Shown piece after piece: positions 47 through 30,181 of a DNA stretch of 38,324 nt. The notes below the pieces were generated by a model. That model was not told where the DNA came from. It made no database searches and saw only the letters and a list, made by a program, of their open reading frames with translations. The translations under genes were made by a program, and so were the position numbers. This DNA comes from an uncultured Enterorhabdus sp. (lineage in GTDB: Bacteria; Actinomycetota; Coriobacteriia; Coriobacteriales; Eggerthellaceae), in assembly GCA_947573925.1 (NCBI GenBank), contig CANPHS010000009.1, positions 1 through 38,324 of the forward strand, read 5' to 3'. How positions within the stretch are numbered: position 1 is the first letter of the stretch; every line of letters begins with the position of its first letter.

Positions 47-93
47 TTTTTTTTTTTTTTGGGGGGTGTGGGGGGGGGGGCCCCCCCCCCCCC
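47..93. other. Homopolymer tracts at window edge
   Basis: The sequence holds a run of 14 T (47-60), 6 G, then 11 G (70-80) directly followed by 13 C (81-93). No coding signal is visible. A G-run abutting a C-run of this length is typical of a low-quality contig end or a misjoin, so I treat it as a likely assembly artefact. A true homopolymeric locus cannot be excluded from the sequence alone. Confidence 0.6.
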
Positions 94-19198: not shown

Positions 19199-19714
19199 AT
19201 GACGACGATTGCCGATGGATTGAAGGACGTGTTTCTAGCCGGCGTGGGCGCCATGGCGCTCGGCGCCGAGAAGACCCAGGAGCTGGTGGAACAGCTGATC
19301 GCTAAGGGCGAGATCACCGTGGAGCAGGGGAAGGCCATCAACTCCGAGGTGCTGAAGCAGGCCCAGGCGAAAGGCGAGCAGGTAAGCCAGCAGGCCCATG
19401 AGACCGCCGGCGAGGCCCAGCGCCAGGCCCGGGCTGCGGCCAGCCAGGTGGAAGAACGGGCGAAGACCGCCGCCTCCCTGGCCAAGGAAGATGCCGAGGC
19501 TGCCGTGTCCTGGGGGCGTTCCCAGGCAGAGATGGCCGCCGATGCCGCCAAGAAAGCCGCCGGCACCGCCCAGCAGGACGCCGCCGATTTCGCCACGGCC
19601 TTGAGGCACGACGTGCTGGAGGCCCAGATGGCCGTCATGACCCCCGAGGAGCGCGCCGCCTTCGCCAAGAAGGCCGCCGAAATCGCCGCCCGCGACGACG
19701 CGAAGGCGGAGTAG
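19199..19714 (+). CDS. Phasin-like / apolipoprotein-like coiled-coil protein
   Basis: 171-residue, Ala/Gln/Lys/Glu-rich protein. Residues 1-55 (MTTIADGLKDVFLAGVGAMA, then EKTQELVEQLIAKGEI) resemble the N-terminal domain of phasin-type PHA granule proteins. Residues ~60-165 form one long amphipathic helix or coiled coil with AAS/AKEDAE repeats. In other bacteria such proteins bind storage granules or membranes, but no PHA synthase is present in the window, so granule association is only inferred. ATG 19199 follows GGGAGG closely. It is monocistronic, with a terminator behind it. Confidence 0.7.
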   Translation: MTTIADGLKDVFLAGVGAMALGAEKTQELVEQLIAKGEITVEQGKAINSEVLKQAQAKGEQVSQQAHETAGEAQRQARAAASQVEERAKTAASLAKEDAEAAVSWGRSQAEMAADAAKKAAGTAQQDAADFATALRHDVLEAQMAVMTPEERAAFAKKAAEIAARDDAKAE

Positions 19715-23078: not shown

Positions 23079-23978
23079 CTATCCAGCTAAGTGCAGCCCC
23101 TTGAAGGGCGGTTCCCCCTGGTGTAGGAGCGAGCTCCTGCTTGAAGTGGGCACCTTGAGCCAGCCAGTTCTGCCCCCGGCTTTCACCTGGAAGCGGACGG
23201 TATTGCCCTTTACGTAGGCCTTCAGGAACTTCACCTTCTGGCCCTTCTTGATGGTGAACTTGACCGACTTGCACTTCGTGTTCTTGTACGCCTTGATCTT
23301 CTTCAGGGCCTTATAGGTGTTTTTGGCCTTCTTGGATCCCACCTGCATCTTGCCCGTGTTGCTCGTTTTCTTGAGGGTGCCGTTCTTGTACTTGTAGGTG
23401 AAGTCGGCACTGATGCCGCCGGCATAGTACGACATCTGGGTGAAGGTGATGGTGATGGAGTTGCCGGACACCTTTTTGATGTCGCCGCTCGGGTGGTAGC
23501 CGATCTTGCTGCCGAATCCCTTGTTGCAGTCGATCACTCTGCGAAGGTAGTCGCCGTCTTTCTTCCAGAGCGAGCATACCTCGGCATCGTCGTTGTCTGA
23601 CCAGGCGCAGAGGTATAGGTAGGGAGTGCCGTTTGCGAGGTTGACGAGACGAGCCCTGATTCCGTAGTAGCGCGTGTCGAACCGCCATCTATCTCCGTTG
23701 ACATTCACATAGAAGCATTCGCCCACATCGTCCCAATGAAAGTAATAATCAGTCTCGATCCCGATGGTGTCGGGCTGTCCGTCGCCAGTAATGTCATACT
23801 TGGTATACGTCGTATCTGGCTTTAGAGTGTGAATCGTCGCGCCCTTGGTGGCCTTGGGCGAGGCGGCGAAGGCGTCTGCGGGCGTGGCCGCCAGCAGCGC
23901 CGTGGCGGCCAGCAGCGCCGCGATAATCGCGACGACGGCCGCGCGTCCCCAACGCGCGAACCTGGTATTTGCTTGCAT
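23079..23978 (-). CDS. Secreted protein of unknown function, SH3-like C-terminus
   Basis: 299 residues. Signal peptide with RFARWGR n-region and cut near DAFAA. Residues ~60-75 hold DITGDGQPDTIGIE, a VCBS/FG-GAP-type loop. Residues ~215-285 are Lys-rich and resemble a bacterial SH3 domain (KKGQKVKFLKAYVKGN, GRTGWLKV). The last ~25 residues (from SSRSSLLHQ) are unlike the rest and may be a frame-shifted end. ATG 23978 has AAAGGA upstream. Its likely promoter is the cassette at 24237-24342, about 280 bases away, which carries a nine-C run. Confidence 0.78.
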   Translation of the reverse strand: MQANTRFARWGRAAVVAIIAALLAATALLAATPADAFAASPKATKGATIHTLKPDTTYTKYDITGDGQPDTIGIETDYYFHWDDVGECFYVNVNGDRWRFDTRYYGIRARLVNLANGTPYLYLCAWSDNDDAEVCSLWKKDGDYLRRVIDCNKGFGSKIGYHPSGDIKKVSGNSITITFTQMSYYAGGISADFTYKYKNGTLKKTSNTGKMQVGSKKAKNTYKALKKIKAYKNTKCKSVKFTIKKGQKVKFLKAYVKGNTVRFQVKAGGRTGWLKVPTSSRSSLLHQGEPPFKGLHLAG

Positions 23979-24236: not shown

Positions 24237-24342
24237 GGGGGGGGGTCTGCCTTTTTGCCATGGGGAACCTCTCCATTTCGTCTTGCGGCTGGCCCCATTA
24301 TAGTCCCGCCCGCCAGCGGAAACAATGACCAGATGGCGTGGT
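24237..24342 (-). promoter_or_regulatory. Promoter cassette with C9 tract, copy 1
   Basis: Read on the minus strand: -35 TTGTTT (24325-24320), 17-base spacer, -10 TATAAT (24302-24297), GGAGAGG, then ATG at 24261 of a leader ORF MAKRQTPPLGS that runs through nine C (24245-24237) and stops. One more C would give a 39-residue leader. The second copy at 28521-28627 is highly similar over its whole length, and identical at the -35, the -10 and the final ~20 bases. It points at the secreted-protein gene starting at 23978. Confidence 0.75.
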
Positions 24343-24907: not shown

Positions 24908-25648
24908 CTAGAAGCGCTTCACGTACCTGCGTAGGTTAGAGGGAACGTCGCTCGACTTGAACTTTCCCATGCTGCTGCTTCCGCTGTAACCGAGGTATCC
25001 TTTGCCGTAGCGGTTCTCCAGTGTCCTGCGGTCGTCGTCATAGTAATAGTACGTGTTCTTGGCTACGCGCGCGCGGTAGCCTGGCCGTTTGTCGGACGAG
25101 CCCGGCGCTGTCTTGGTGCGCGTGAGTGAGATTTTCGCTCTGGTTACGTTGGAAGTGCTGGCAACGAACCTCCCGTTGTTGTCCAGGTGTGCGGGGAAAA
25201 GGTAGGCCTTCCCGTTCTTGACGTACATGAAATGTCCGCCCGAGCTCCCGGTGTGCCACCAGCCGTTCAGACTCTTCATTGCTTTCTGCGCATGGGTGAG
25301 GCCCTTCACCGTCACCTTGCAGGTGAGCTTCTTCTTGCCCACCTTGGCCGTGATGGTGGCCTTGCCCGCCTTCTTGGCCGTCACCTTGCCGGCCTTGGAC
25401 ACCGTGGCGACCTTCTTGTTGGAGGACGCCCACTTCACCTTGGCCTTGCCGGCATTCTTCACTTTCAAGGTGAAGGCCTTGCCCTTTGTCAGCGTCTTGC
25501 TCGCGGCGCTGAGCTTCGGCGCCTTCTTGGCGGCGGCGAAGGCGTCGCCCGGCGTGGCCGCCACGAGCCCTATGGCTGCCAGAGACAACGTGAGGCACGC
25601 GATGATAGTGAGTCGCCCCCATCGTACGAATCTGATACTTTCCTGCAT
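24908..25648 (-). CDS. Secreted protein with bacterial Ig-like (Big_2) domain
   Basis: 246 residues. Signal peptide with RFVRWGR n-region and cut near DAFAA. Residues ~45-115 form a Big_2 Ig-like domain (KLSAASKTLTKGKAFTLKV, KVKWASSNKKVATV, KAGKATITAKVG). The C-terminal half (from THAQKAMKSLNGWWHTGSSG) is a Tyr/Arg-rich domain of unknown function. ATG 25648 has GGAAGGAG upstream; a longer in-frame reading from 25714 is rejected. It probably acts at the cell surface or in the medium. Its own promoter is likely at 25674-25701. Confidence 0.82.
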   Translation of the reverse strand: MQESIRFVRWGRLTIIACLTLSLAAIGLVAATPGDAFAAAKKAPKLSAASKTLTKGKAFTLKVKNAGKAKVKWASSNKKVATVSKAGKVTAKKAGKATITAKVGKKKLTCKVTVKGLTHAQKAMKSLNGWWHTGSSGGHFMYVKNGKAYLFPAHLDNNGRFVASTSNVTRAKISLTRTKTAPGSSDKRPGYRARVAKNTYYYYDDDRRTLENRYGKGYLGYSGSSSMGKFKSSDVPSNLRRYVKRF

Positions 25649-25673
25649 GGCCGCTCCTTCCTCTTGGGTTCCG

Positions 25674-25701
25674 ATTATATGCGAATGAGTGCGGACAGCA
25701 A
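25674..25701 (-). promoter_or_regulatory. Promoter of Big_2 secreted-protein gene
   Basis: On the minus strand TTGCTG (25701-25696), 16-base spacer, TATAAT (25679-25674). The start codon is about 26 bases after the -10. Confidence 0.6.
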
Positions 25702-25723
25702 GATGCGACTGCATCCGAAGTTG

Positions 25724-26788
25724 CTACTTCTTCGTCTTCACTGCTTTGGCGGCCGACCATGCGGAGTAGTAGGTCTTCTTGCCGACCTTCTTGTACGTGC
25801 GCATCTGCACGTAGTACTTCTTGCCGGCCTTCAGCTTGGAGACTTTCAGGCTCGAGCGCTTGGCACCCTTCACGGTGGCCTTCTTCGCGCCCTTCATGGA
25901 CTTCTTGGTGGCATAGCGCACCTGGTAGCCGTCGGTCTGCGAGGCGGCCAGCTTGCCCCACTTCACCGCGAAGCCCTTCTTGGTCAGCGAGAGCTTCTTG
26001 ATCGTCGGCGCCTTGGGCCTCACCTGGAACGTCTTCGTGACCGAGAACCGGTACGCCCCCTTGCCGGTGATGGTGACCGTGGCCGCGCCGAGGCCTCCCG
26101 CACCGGAATAGCTCACCGTGTAGTCGACGCCCTCCCGCAGCGTAATGCCCCCGACTACGATGGTGATGGGCGGCCGCGCCAATCCCCCGGGCGCGAAGTC
26201 CGCATCGCCCACAGCGATGTCGGAGGGGTTGACGGGGATGGGAGTGTTGGGGGCGGTTTCGCTTGGAGTGTTATGCGAGTTGCCTGGCTTGTCTATGCCA
26301 GAATTGGGATTATCGGGCTCTGGGTTATCTGGTTTTGGATCTGTGGGTCTCGAGGGGTCCACGACAGTTGGGCTGATTCCAACGCTATTCTCGATGAGTG
26401 CGGAAAGCTTCCCGTTGTTGGGGGTGACTTTAATGGTTCTTAGCGAGTTGCATTCGGTGAGGACGTCGTTTGTCGCTGTGCTTTCTGTTACATTCCAACC
26501 GGAAAGATCAAGCGATACGAGTCGGGAGCAGCCTTGGAACATGAAGTCCATGTCAGCAATTTCTGATACGTTCCAGCCCGAGAGGTCGAGCGACGTGAGA
26601 GCGGAACAGTTGTAGAACATCGAAAGCATATAGTCTACCTCTGATACATCCCACCCGGAAAGGTTAAGGGTCGTGAGTTCGGTGCAGCCATCGAACATGC
26701 TGTCTGCCCCTCTCACTTTCCAGCCAGAAAGGTCGAGCGATGTGAGCTTCGAGCATCCTGTAAACATTTTGCTGACATTAGCATCAAA
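25724..26788 (-). pseudogene. LRR (DUF285/BspA-like) secreted protein, C-terminal part split by IS
   Basis: Reads about 351 codons after the insertion point. Four or more ~26-residue DUF285 repeats of the form SLDLSGWxVSExxxMxxMFxxCxxL are followed by a Pro/Asn/Asp linker (DPKPDNPEPDNPNSG), an MBG-like domain (ITIVVGGITLREGVDYTVSY) and a C-terminal fibronectin type III-like domain (KAPTIKKLSLTKKGFAVKW to KTKK). There is no sorting signal. The N-terminal part is at 27894-28439; removing the IS and one target copy gives ...GWNVFDANVSKMFTGC... in frame, a protein of about 526 residues. This part now lacks its own start and signal peptide. Confidence 0.85.
26781..26788. repeat. Target site duplication, left (GCATCAAA)
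   Basis: Eight-base direct repeat flanking the IS; the same GCATCAAA is at 27916-27923. Confidence 0.93.
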
Positions 26789-27915
26789 CCCGCTGTTAAA
26801 CCACCATTGACATAGGCCCGCAATCGGTACACGCAGAAAGGGGCCTCCCGCTACGATGCGATTGTCGAGAAAGCACCGGAGAGGAGGCCCCGTGGGCAAG
26901 ATTATAGACCAAGTGAGGGGGATGTCGCTGGCGGAGAAGAGGGAGCTCGCCGAGGCGCTGAGGGAGGCCATCGCCGAGGAGCTGGCCTCCGGCGCGGGCG
27001 AGCCCGACCGCTGCCCGCGGTGCGGCTGCCCCGCCTTCGTGAGGAAGGGGCGGGACGCGGCCGGGCGCCAGAGGTGGCTGTGCCGGGGCTGCGGCCGGAC
27101 CTTCGGCGCCGGCACGCTCGGCCTGCTCGCGCGCTCGAAGCTGCCGGCGGCGGCGTGGATGGAGTTCGCGGCCTGCATGGCCGACGCGCTGCCGCTGCGG
27201 GAGACGGCGGCCCGGGTCGGGGTCTCCCTGTACACGGCGTGGTTCATGAGGATGCGCGTCTGCGAGGTGATGGGGCGCCGCCTGCTCCCGGCGCGCGGGG
27301 ACGCCTTCGAGATGGACGGGACCTACTTCCCCGAGTCGATGCCCGGGAACCACTCCCGCGGCTGGTACGAGCTGGGGCGGCCCGCGCACCGTACCGGGCA
27401 CGACGCGCCCCGCGCCGGGCTCGGCGGGTCGGTCTGCGTGCTGTGCGGCGCCGGCGAGACCGGCGACTGCTTCTGCGAGCTGGCCGACGGCGCGGAGGCA
27501 TCCGCGGACGTGTCGCTCGTGGCGTCGAGGAGGCTGCCGGCCTCCTGCTCGGTGGCCACCGACGGGCGCCGCTCCTACGCCGGGTCCCTCGGCGGCAGGC
27601 CCCACGAGGTGCGCCCGAGCAGGGAGCTGGAGATGGTCAACTCGCTGCACTCCAGGCTCAAGGCGTTCGTCGGGCGCTTCAACGGGGTGTCGAACCGGCG
27701 GCTGCAGCGCTACCTCGACTGGTTCTGCTGGCGGGAGCAGTTCCGCCGCAGCGCCCGCGACCGGCGCGAGCTGCTGTTCGCCCACGAGGCCTCGGGCACC
27801 TACGTGTGCACCCGCGAGCTGACGCACCTGGAGTCGCACCCCTTCCTGAGCCTGGCGAACCGCGTCGGCATCGGGGAGCGGTACGGCTACATGTCACTGG
27901 TGGTTTAACAGCGGG
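26789..27915 (+). mobile_element. Complete IS1595-family-like insertion sequence
   Basis: 1127 bp. Terminal inverted repeats of 25 bp with one mismatch: both ends read CCCGCTGTTAAACCACCA, then T or G, then TGACAT (26789-26813 and the complement of 27891-27915). It is flanked by 8-bp duplications, typical of the IS1595 family, and carries a single transposase gene whose stop lies inside the right repeat. It interrupts the LRR gene in the opposite orientation. The near-perfect ends and identical target copies indicate a recent insertion. Confidence 0.92.
26892..27908 (+). CDS. IS1595-like transposase
   Basis: 338 residues. N-terminal zinc ribbon C41xxC44 ... C64xxC67 (CPRCGC, CRGCGR), a helix-turn-helix-like stretch (LPLRETAARVGVSLYTAWF), then a DDE-type catalytic region with candidate acids D142 (EMDGTYF) and D224 (VATDGRRSY) and third-residue region NSLHSRLKAFVGRFNGVS. 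The YLDWFCWR segment resembles the ISXO2/IS1595 C-terminus. The GTG at 26892 is chosen for AGGAGG just upstream; an ATG at 26856 is possible. GC content is higher than in the interrupted gene, in line with a different origin. Confidence 0.88.
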   Translation: MGKIIDQVRGMSLAEKRELAEALREAIAEELASGAGEPDRCPRCGCPAFVRKGRDAAGRQRWLCRGCGRTFGAGTLGLLARSKLPAAAWMEFAACMADALPLRETAARVGVSLYTAWFMRMRVCEVMGRRLLPARGDAFEMDGTYFPESMPGNHSRGWYELGRPAHRTGHDAPRAGLGGSVCVLCGAGETGDCFCELADGAEASADVSLVASRRLPASCSVATDGRRSYAGSLGGRPHEVRPSRELEMVNSLHSRLKAFVGRFNGVSNRRLQRYLDWFCWREQFRRSARDRRELLFAHEASGTYVCTRELTHLESHPFLSLANRVGIGERYGYMSLVV

Positions 27916-28439
27916 GCATCAAATACATTCCAGCCTGCAAGGTTGAGCAAAGCGAGCTCGTAGCAGCCTTGGAACATGCAGAACATATCTCTTACCTTTG
28001 ATACATCAAGATTATGCAGGTCGGCGGTCCTCGTGTTTGAAAACATGCCTAAATTAATCTTCTCGTAGGGCCAGACGATCTTTTCGGGTGTTTTGATGCT
28101 GGCAACCGATTCGATTGCGGCAGACTCTTCTACCCCAAGACCGTCAAGGTTACCAGGCACACTTGTCACATAGCCGCCGTGCTCATTCATGTATTTATCG
28201 TTAGCGTTCGGGGTGTTTTGTATGATAGCAACGTTATCATCCCTATCAGTTGAACCATAAATAACAATGTATACTTCGCTATTTGATGCCCAAGCCTCTT
28301 TTGCGAATAGAAGCGATTGAGCCGGGATACAGGCGATGCAGAGGAGCGCCGCGAGAAGCATTCTTATTGTTTTGTTTGGTAAGACTGATTTGGTGCGAGA
28401 TATATCGTAAAGGGATTGTTCGGCCCCGTTCTCGTTCAT
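27894..28439 (-). pseudogene. LRR (DUF285/BspA-like) secreted protein, N-terminal part split by IS
   Basis: 181 codons as it stands: a signal peptide (hydrophobic core ~28-50, cut near AWA), an uncharacterised domain, and the first DUF285-like repeats (NLDVSKVRDMFCMFQGC, LLNLAGWNV). The last six residues (PLLNHQ) and the stop come from the IS end. ATG 28439 is chosen for GGAAGGGAGGG upstream. Native sequence continues at 26780 on the far side of the IS. Its promoter is the C9 cassette at 28521-28627. The truncated product might still be secreted. Confidence 0.85.
27916..27923. repeat. Target site duplication, right (GCATCAAA)
   Basis: Second copy of the 8-base target duplication of the IS at 26789-27915. 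Confidence 0.93.
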
Positions 28440-28506
28440 CGCTGTCCCTCCCTTCCGCAAACGGGGCGGGATTGCGTGGGCCGAGATAGCTCGAAGAGCG
28501 CAAGTG

Positions 28507-28545
28507 CTACGCGATTATCTGGGGGGGGGTCCGCCTTTGTGCCAT
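28507..28545 (-). CDS. Short leader ORF through the C9 tract (possible regulatory peptide)
   Basis: From ATG 28545, preceded by GGAGAG: MAQRRTPPQIIA, 12 residues, then TAG. It reads through nine C (28529-28521). With ten C the frame would run on to 36 residues and end in a TGA that overlaps the LRR gene start as ATGA (28439). The peptide itself has no known homologue; its role, if any, would be translational control. Confidence 0.45.
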   Translation of the reverse strand: MAQRRTPPQIIA

Positions 28546-28627
28546 GGGACGTCTCTCCATTTCGTCTTGTGGAACAGCCCCATTATAGGCTTTGCGGCCA
28601 GCGGAAACAATGACCAGATGGCGTGGT
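28521..28627 (-). promoter_or_regulatory. Promoter cassette with C9 tract, copy 2
   Basis: On the minus strand: -35 TTGTTT (28610-28605), 17-base spacer, -10 TATAAT (28587-28582), then GGAGAG and the leader ATG (28545-28543), ending in nine C. It is highly similar to 24237-24342, with identical promoter hexamers. It drives the LRR gene interrupted by the IS, and is divergent from the AbiE operon. Confidence 0.75.
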
Positions 28628-28683
28628 GTTATCGAGCGCAGGGTCGGCGCTTGGTGGATCAACGGCGCGTTAAATTATTCTCT

Positions 28684-28728
28684 ATTTCCTCCAGTAAATT
28701 GTGTATAATGCAACTTACTGGAGGAAAT
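28684..28728 (+). promoter_or_regulatory. AbiE operon promoter and inverted-repeat operator
   Basis: Perfect 14-bp inverted repeat: ATTTCCTCCAGTAA (28684-28697) and TTACTGGAGGAAAT (28715-28728). TATAAT (28704-28709) lies in the spacer and the right arm contains the GGAGG ribosome site, ending right at the ATG. AbiEi antitoxins are known to bind inverted repeats in their own promoter and repress it; this placement would block both transcription and, as a hairpin, translation. Confidence 0.8.
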
Positions 28729-29322
28729 ATGGTAAAAACGACGAAGATGCTGCAAGAGGAACTTGCGAGCTATGGCGACCCGGCGAATAAAATCGCTCGC
28801 TTGGCGCGGGCGGGCGAACTCGTGCCGGTTGTTCGCGGCTTGTACGAGACTGACCCTGCCACTTCACCGTGGGTGCTCGCCGGTTGCATTTACGGCCCTT
28901 CTTACGTTTCATTCGATGCCGCTCTCGCTTACCATGGCCTCATCCCCGAAGGGGTCCGATCTATAACAAGTGCCACGTTCGAGAAGCGCAAGAGCAAGGC
29001 CTACGACACGCCATTCGGTGCGTTCCTCTATCGTGACGTGCCTTCTCGGGCTTTTCCCCATGGTCTTGTGGTGGCCGAAGAGGGCGGCCGTCCCTTTCGC
29101 ATTGCCTGTGCCGAGAAGGCGTTGTGCGACAAGCTATACGACTTGCATCCGGTGTCTTCGCGACGGGAGCTTGCTCGTCTGCTCGCGGAAGATCTGCGCA
29201 TTGAGGCCGCGACGCTCGCGCAACTCGACGACGAATACGTCGACTTTCTCGCCGACCAGTACCAGAGCCGCAATGTACGTTTATTCGCGGCATTGCTGGA
29301 AAGGGGGCTGCCCTATGAATAG
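28729..29322 (+). CDS. AbiEi-type antitoxin (type IV toxin-antitoxin, transcriptional repressor)
   Basis: 197 residues. N-terminal winged-helix region (MLQEELASYGDPANKIARLA, ELVPVVRGLYETDP) as in AbiEi, followed by a C-terminal antitoxin domain (GPSYVSFDAALAYHGLIPEG, ACAEKALCDKLYDL). In AbiE systems the antitoxin counters the nucleotidyltransferase toxin without direct contact and represses the operon. ATG 28729 sits on the strong GGAGG embedded in the operator; longer readings from 28504 are rejected. It overlaps the toxin gene by 8 bases. Base composition is lower in GC than in the house-keeping genes, suggesting acquisition. Confidence 0.9.
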   Translation: MVKTTKMLQEELASYGDPANKIARLARAGELVPVVRGLYETDPATSPWVLAGCIYGPSYVSFDAALAYHGLIPEGVRSITSATFEKRKSKAYDTPFGAFLYRDVPSRAFPHGLVVAEEGGRPFRIACAEKALCDKLYDLHPVSSRRELARLLAEDLRIEAATLAQLDDEYVDFLADQYQSRNVRLFAALLERGLPYE

Positions 29323-30181
29323 CGCCATCGAGCGTATGCTTGCGCCCTATGAGGCTGTCACGCTTGCCGACCGGAAAAATGCCACAAAGGAGGTTATCCA
29401 GGAGATCGTCCTATGCGGTCTCTCGCGAGCGGGATTTTTCGATAGGGCGGCATTTTATGGCGGAACGGCTCTGCGCATATTCTATGGTCTTGACCGTTTT
29501 TCCGAGGACCTCGATTTCTCGCTCATGACCCCCGACGCTTTTTTCGAACTGAGCCGGTATTTTACTGGGCTTGAAAAGGAGGCACGTTCGTTCGGGCTGA
29601 ATGTGGAAGTTTCCAAGAAGGACAAGGCAAACGAATCAGACATACATTCCGCGTTTCTGAAAGGCAACACGCGGGAGCATCTGCTGATGTTCTACCCTGC
29701 AGATGATGCGGAAAGCGGAGTGGCCCCTGACGAGAAAATAAAGGTAAAGTTCGAGGTTGATGTGAATCCGCCGGCCCATGCGCATTTTCGGCGCACCTAT
29801 CGTTTGTTGCCCGTTCCCTACGAGGTGAATTTGTATGACGAGCCATCTCTTTTTGCCAGGAAGATTCATGCGGTACTTTGTCGCGGCTGGAAGAATCGCG
29901 TTAAGGGACGCGATCTCTACGACTATTTGTTCTATCTCTCGCGTAAGACTCCCGTCAATCTGCCCCATCTCGGCGCACGGCTTGCGCAGACGGGTCATCT
30001 TGCGGAAGGGGAGCAGCTTGATCTGGCGTCGTTGCGCAAGATGCTGACTGAGCGATTTGCGGCTATCGACTTCGCCGATGCTAAGCGAGATGTGGAGCCC
30101 TTTATCGGCGATACTCGCACGCTGGACCTATGGGGTGCCGACCTTTTCGGCGAAGTGACCCGATCGCTCTGCGCTGAATGA
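29315..30181 (+). CDS. AbiEii-type nucleotidyltransferase toxin
   Basis: 288 residues. The nucleotidyltransferase motif is visible: FYGGTALRIFYGLDRFSEDLDF, with G49-G50-T51 and D65xD67. The downstream conserved block LFARKIHAVLCR and KGRDLYDYLFY is typical of AbiEii/DUF1814. Characterised relatives add nucleotides to tRNA or related targets and halt growth, giving phage abortive infection. ATG 29315 overlaps the antitoxin stop, so translation is coupled and in the antitoxin-first order. Confidence 0.92.
   Translation: MNSAIERMLAPYEAVTLADRKNATKEVIQEIVLCGLSRAGFFDRAAFYGGTALRIFYGLDRFSEDLDFSLMTPDAFFELSRYFTGLEKEARSFGLNVEVSKKDKANESDIHSAFLKGNTREHLLMFYPADDAESGVAPDEKIKVKFEVDVNPPAHAHFRRTYRLLPVPYEVNLYDEPSLFARKIHAVLCRGWKNRVKGRDLYDYLFYLSRKTPVNLPHLGARLAQTGHLAEGEQLDLASLRKMLTERFAAIDFADAKRDVEPFIGDTRTLDLWGADLFGEVTRSLCAE

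Follow-up and report, generated by a model that had tools for sequence, protein, structure and literature searches.

We identified a short leader ORF containing a run of nine cytosines 5′ of a surface-protein gene in a 38,324-nt stretch of DNA (hereafter the window) from an Adlercreutzia MAG (2.42 Mb, 213 contigs). In our judgement this leader is likely to be frame-switched by tract length and to act on the following LRR gene through translational coupling or polarity; for a tract-length switch acting specifically through coupling, we see the balance as tipping slightly in favour. A preliminary description of the same DNA had proposed the latter, with on/off or high/low control of translation. 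The support that we see for a switch in the window is comparative and hardly comes from the window alone. It draws on a corresponding module in a congener, Adlercreutzia caecimuris B7.

Anatomy and reading frames of the leader ORF

The leader and its signals lie on the minus strand. Its promoter consists of a –35 element TTGTTT (28605..28610) and a –10 element TATAAT (28582..28587), the latter a perfect consensus. Both elements are identical, and the spacer between them is 17 nt, in this module (copy 2), in a second window module (copy 1) and in A. caecimuris B7. A generic promoter scan missed the pair because the –35 element matches the consensus at 3/6 positions only. A Shine-Dalgarno (SD) sequence, GGAGAG (28553..28558), lies 5′ of an ATG with its first base at 28545. 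As assembled, with nine cytosines (C9), the ORF encodes MAQRRTPPQIIA* in 12 codons (28507..28545), and the tract (28521..28529) runs from codon 6 on.

Computing the frames for C8, C9, C10 and C11 shows that a one-base change in the tract alters the frame of the leader. The C9 frame is stopped by a TAG at 28507..28509. At C8 and C11 the leader enters the frame of the LRR gene and ends after 9 and 10 codons, respectively, at a TAA (28515..28517). With one base more than assembled, the C10 frame continues for 36 codons (28436..28545), and its TGA (28438-28436) overlaps the LRR start codon at 28439 as ATGA (28436..28439). The stops of the two closed frames thus lie at +6 and +14 from the tract and that of the open frame at +85, so that a change in tract length moves the stop from an early position to the proposed regulatory site. 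Our recomputation reproduced the leader lengths in the preliminary description (12 codons at C9, 36 at C10) and agreed to the base with the overlap that it had reported.

We then asked how often such a layout is expected by chance. When the ATGA was held fixed, 42% of dinucleotide shuffles of the 81-nt window spacer left one of the three frames open to it, and read-through occurred in 42–59% of shuffles over the window and B7 spacers. Given the 42% figure, the overlap taken by itself within the window is weak evidence. One open frame combined with closure of the other two within 14 nt of the tract was found in 0.25% of window-spacer shuffles; a looser test for one open and two closed frames gave 1.2% (window) and 0.6%.

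The LRR gene and copy 1 of the module

The LRR gene (minus strand) has an SD, GGAAGGGAGGG (28446..28456), spaced 6 nt from its start and lying in a predicted weak hairpin. Its reading frame from 28439 is interrupted after about 174 codons by an IS1595-like element (26789..27915, plus strand) with 25-bp terminal inverted repeats and an 8-bp target duplication, GCATCAAA, at 26781-26788 and 27916-27923. The N-terminal part (27916..28439, BspA-like/DUF285) contains a signal peptide, a hydrophobic segment judged by eye, and the first repeat, and has a weak domain match (0.0036). The C-terminal part (25724..26788) matches DUF285 (1e-19) and LRR_5 (2.8e-8) and contains fn3. The domain match together with the signal peptide places the product among BspA-like/DUF285 secreted proteins. 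Since the gene is broken by the element, coupling in this MAG would drive a truncated secreted fragment only.

Copy 1 (24237..24325, minus strand) has the promoter, a leader start MAKRQT and a C9 tract, and is located 5′ of a secreted-protein gene starting at 23978. The two copies have the promoter and leader start in common (84% identity) and differ 3′ of the tract. From its ATG at 24261, with the tract at 24245-24237, the copy 1 leader has 11 codons at C9. At C10 it opens to 39 codons without a start overlap, as had been claimed in the preliminary description, which overlooked that C8 and C11 open 79 and 80 codons, ending 42 nt before the ATG at 23978. There is no ATGA, and copy 1 gives no support for coupling.

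A matching module in A. caecimuris B7

The B7 module was found by reading each poly-C tract and by codon pattern. It has the TTGTTT-17-TATAAT promoter followed by ATG GAA CAG AGA AGG ACA C9 (peptide MEQRRTPPP). Here the leader has 10 codons at C9, 13 at C10 and 35–36 at C8/C11. The open frame (C8/C11) ends in GCATGATCGAG, again with ATGA, on the start of a GmrSD-type gene, whose 550-aa product matches Pfam GmrSD_N (7.6e-36) and GmrSD_C (1.7e-27) and PADLOC Orf5 and HEC-06. C9 is a closed state in both assemblies.

The closed-frame stops of window and B7 are at equal offsets with different codons, TAA/TGA at +6 and TAG/TAA at +14. The open-frame stop is at +85 in the window and at +82 in B7, and the spacers (81 and 78 nt) differ by 3 nt. 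Because codon 6 is ACC in the window and ACA in B7, the open state corresponds in both species to 10 bases between GGA and AGRTRAT. Four of the five leader codon differences are synonymous (window/B7, codons 3–6: CAA/CAG, AGG/AGA, CGG/AGG, ACC/ACA), while codon 2 changes the amino acid from A in the window to E in B7; 3′ of the tract the leader peptide is not conserved between the two. The synonymous pattern indicates that the leader ATG is in use. Taken together, the pattern fits selection for a translated leader in which two frames are stopped early and the third reaches the next start. Part of the likeness is probably shared descent, as the copies appear orthologous. The stop-start co-location is present in two species with different first genes, but these instances number only two, one from a MAG and one from an isolate, and their orthology makes them statistically non-independent.

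A DNA-similarity search of 138 family genomes for the module returned the two window copies only. One B7 similarity match was rejected as promoter-like sequence 5′ of an unrelated gene (L053, as distinct from the module at L083), and most other codon-pattern matches in the family look like chance. An exact-pattern scan of genome contigs found the B7 match and five matches in unrelated phyla, and the same scan of viral contigs found none. We also considered a GTG 8 nt 5′ of the B7 leader ATG, in a frame open at C9; it is disfavoured, lacking SD spacing and being absent from the window module.

Gene order at the chromosomal site

The two modules occupy one and the same variable region, flanked on one side by a conserved small gene (window 19199-19714) and on the other by rlmB (window 30526). 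In congeners with both flanking genes mapped, the distance between the flanks is about 0.2 to 2.3 kb and no module was found there; in one further genome (G006) the contig ends before the second flank. In the window the leader is followed by the LRR gene and then by a secreted-protein gene (24908-25714). In B7 the order is GmrSD, an LRR gene with its own SD and a secreted-protein gene. The LRR proteins of B7 and window are 34% identical where compared and the secreted-protein relatives 85% identical (part of the B7 stretch is masked). The difference in gene order implies that GmrSD was gained or lost between the leader and the LRR gene, and ATGA exists with either first gene. With some reservation, at a little under even chances, we propose that the module is a portable frame-switch cassette, in which a promoter and a conserved poly-C mini-ORF would subject whichever gene follows to stochastic translational coupling. 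At a single fixed chromosomal site, that gene is one for a surface LRR protein in the window species and one for GmrSD-type phage defence in B7.

An AbiEi/AbiEii toxin-antitoxin pair (window 28729-30181) is divergent from the leader, and an inverted repeat, TCCTCCAGTAA...TTACTGGAGGA, around the AbiEi TATAAT looks like an AbiEi operator. A reading of the tract on the plus strand as an extension of AbiEi is not favoured, as the AbiEi ATG at 28729 has its own TATAAT and the inverted repeat just 5′ of it.

Poly-C tracts across the genus

Genomes of the genus contain 1 to 58 C9-or-longer runs each, the MAG counts including contig-end runs that resemble sequencing artefacts. We do not claim a genome-wide excess of C9 runs: rough composition estimates predict at least as many, and for this reason the argument rests on tract placement. 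Among 132 tracts at least eight C long, 39 were flagged because they sit early in an ORF that is long in one length class and stops early in the other two; some of the 39 are likely spurious. The flagged tracts include a secreted-protein family, a family-2 glycosyltransferase and an LRR paralogue in the window genome. With many intragenic poly-C tracts of this switch geometry in the genus, slippage switching appears credible for the genus and slippage at the window tract plausible, though this is no proof for the leader.

Several of these tracts deserve description in their own right. Paralogous secreted proteins of Adlercreutzia carry C8–C11 directly after the signal peptide (..AEPEGQITET-polyC; L041, L054, L098, L101, L102, L110, L202-L204, L212, L217-L219, L228). 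In each genome only a few copies are in frame and most are not, a picture suggestive of a large repertoire of phase-variable surface proteins. The second LRR gene of the window genome (L172 / G000:C81) has MQT-C8 in its own start and is out of frame as assembled. A family-2 glycosyltransferase that starts within poly-C has C9 in the window genome and C10 in G003, both in frame (L044, L108). Long poly-G/poly-C runs at window 70-93 and at several contig ends of the window genome are probably two-colour sequencing artefacts, and a run of 39 C inside an ORF (L046, G000:C48:7556-7594), flanked by duplicated ACGGCCGT, is probably an assembly oddity.

A second, unrelated leader family (L168 in G006, L169 in G002) lies 5′ of an unknown gene and an LRR gene. 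It has a long conserved 5′ UTR; its open frame stops either 19 nt before the next start or 89 nt beyond it, and the two other frames close within about 21 nt, a layout of one open and two closed frames seen in 0.8% and 0.9% of shuffles. It has no ATGA end, and the start codon has no clear SD. The long untranslated stretches in its closed states suggest polarity as an alternative mechanism. The tract of the G002 leader is the sole C9-or-longer run in that genome.

Proposed mechanism and alternative explanations

From the anatomy, the frames and their conservation in a second species we infer slippage at the locus, coupling and the size of its effect, as follows. The promoter would produce an mRNA that opens with a brief translated leader, M-x-Q-R-R-T-P-P, in which the prolines are encoded by the slippage-prone C tract. 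In two tract-length classes out of three the ribosome would halt at most 14 nt past the tract, and the third (C10, or C10 plus or minus 3n, in the window) would carry it about 24 codons further, to the next start. At the ATGA it would open the structured SD and re-initiate. Slipped-strand mispairing would in this way set translation of the next gene to high (C10) or low (C8, C9, C11) in the window. What counts would be that the leader is translated, not which peptide results, since the peptide past the tract is not conserved.

Structure predictions place the SD of the next gene inside a hairpin in both species, strongly so in B7, whose downstream start is in the top 3.4% of 87 background starts by opening energy. 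The window LRR start is ordinary (37% of background starts are harder to open), and its SD hairpin has a z of about –1.8, with 11/200 shuffles as stable. Nothing terminator-like was found at 28300-28760 around the window leader, and no U-run follows the B7 hairpin in the sequence. We prefer coupling over attenuation at the window locus because the leader stop overlaps the next start as ATGA in two species (in the C10 frame in the window, in the C8/C11 frame in B7), an intrinsic terminator is absent, and the next SD is predicted to be in a hairpin in both. The proposal of a coupling switch thus gained from the three-frame logic and ATGA of B7 and from the synonymous leader codons, and lost from copy 1, which has no such arrangement. 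As to the two modes of control that had been put forward, high/low may fit better than on/off, because the LRR gene carries its own good SD and has a start that is not unusually occluded.

A frame-switched leader could instead act on transcription, through Rho-dependent or other early termination in the closed states, with ribosomes protecting the RNA in the open state. The pil1 leader is a precedent, albeit terminator-based (PMC3894217), and the second leader family points the same way: its open frames stop 19 nt before or 89 nt beyond the next start, and its closed states leave about 220–260 nt untranslated, which suits Rho better than re-initiation. At the window leader, an intrinsic terminator is missing, the 65–75 nt or so left untranslated in the closed states make a short target for Rho, and the presence of the exact ATGA in both species speaks for coupling; we regard termination as unlikely here.

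The leader could also be an ordinary one, with a stable C9 and downstream translation independent of it. That both assemblies have C9, that the LRR gene has a good SD and that genome-wide C9 runs are not obviously above the composition expectation would agree with this. The three-frame logic kept in two species and the similar logic of the second leader family argue against it, and we think it improbable.

We give slightly less weight still to a vestige, in which leader and tract would be left from an intragenic phase-variable N-terminus after gene replacement, the frame and ATGA being coincidental. Intragenic MQT-C(n) starts do exist in the LRR paralogue and in another secreted protein, a single stop codon separates the leader from an in-frame LRR fusion in the C8/C11 frame, and read-through to ATGA is common by chance. 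However, B7 retains a stop in the fusion frame, though with a different codon, which rules out fusion in either species; the codon changes in the leader are synonymous, and the spacer difference is a multiple of 3. The same retained stop led us to reject the idea that the leader extends the next gene in frame at its N-terminus.

It is very improbable that the tract works as RNA or DNA rather than through frame (by pairing with the G-rich SD, by promoter spacing or through an sRNA, as for H. pylori tlpB): poly-C and a GGGAGGG SD do occur on one RNA, and a length-variable leader repeat read by an sRNA has precedent (PMC8295292), but the tract is downstream of the –10 element and inside a conserved ORF. 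Base pairing between tract and SD as the switch was rejected, its predicted strength being about zero from C8 to C11 in both species.

Relation to known systems

In homopolymer contingency genes of Neisseria and Campylobacter, the tract usually lies within the gene that is switched or within that gene's promoter. The proposed switch resembles them in using poly-C of 8–11 as a frame switch, with surface proteins and a glycosyltransferase as apparent targets in the genus, and differs in having the tract in a separate leader ORF. Translational coupling by a stop-start overlap such as ATGA is normally fixed; the arrangement seen in two species, with the leader stop overlapping the gene start, is of this kind, whereas here coupling would exist for one tract-length class only.

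In Streptococcus gallolyticus, GCAGA repeats in a leader peptide control pil1 and pil3: when the frame shifts, the leader becomes longer and a transcription terminator is opened (Danne et al. 2014, PMC3894217). As there, the window has a short-repeat tract in a translated leader ORF 5′ of surface-protein genes; an early leader stop marks the low state, and a longer leader raises expression of the next gene, an effect demonstrated there and proposed here. The repeat is a homopolymer here and a pentamer there, and the target there is a stem-loop terminator with a U-run, while here there is none and the stop of the long frame overlaps the next start as ATGA. As such a terminator is missing, we do not class the window module as pil1-type. 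In the H. pylori tlpB-hp0102 operon, a leader G-repeat is read by the sRNA RepG with a graded effect (PMC8295292). The common element is a homopolymer in an mRNA leader that sets operon expression, its length variation and its effect being demonstrated in H. pylori and proposed here; the means would be reading frame in our case and is sRNA pairing in theirs. A literature search, with most subscription papers outside its coverage, found no description of poly-C phase variation in Adlercreutzia.

If the proposal is true, a separate, gene-independent leader ORF can render any following gene phase-variable through coupling, and both gene finding and surveys of phase variation that seek repeats inside genes or promoters would miss such switches. 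The portable cassette would be a translation-level counterpart of the terminator-based pil1 leader, and a gut commensal genus would randomise surface proteins and a phage-defence gene from one site.
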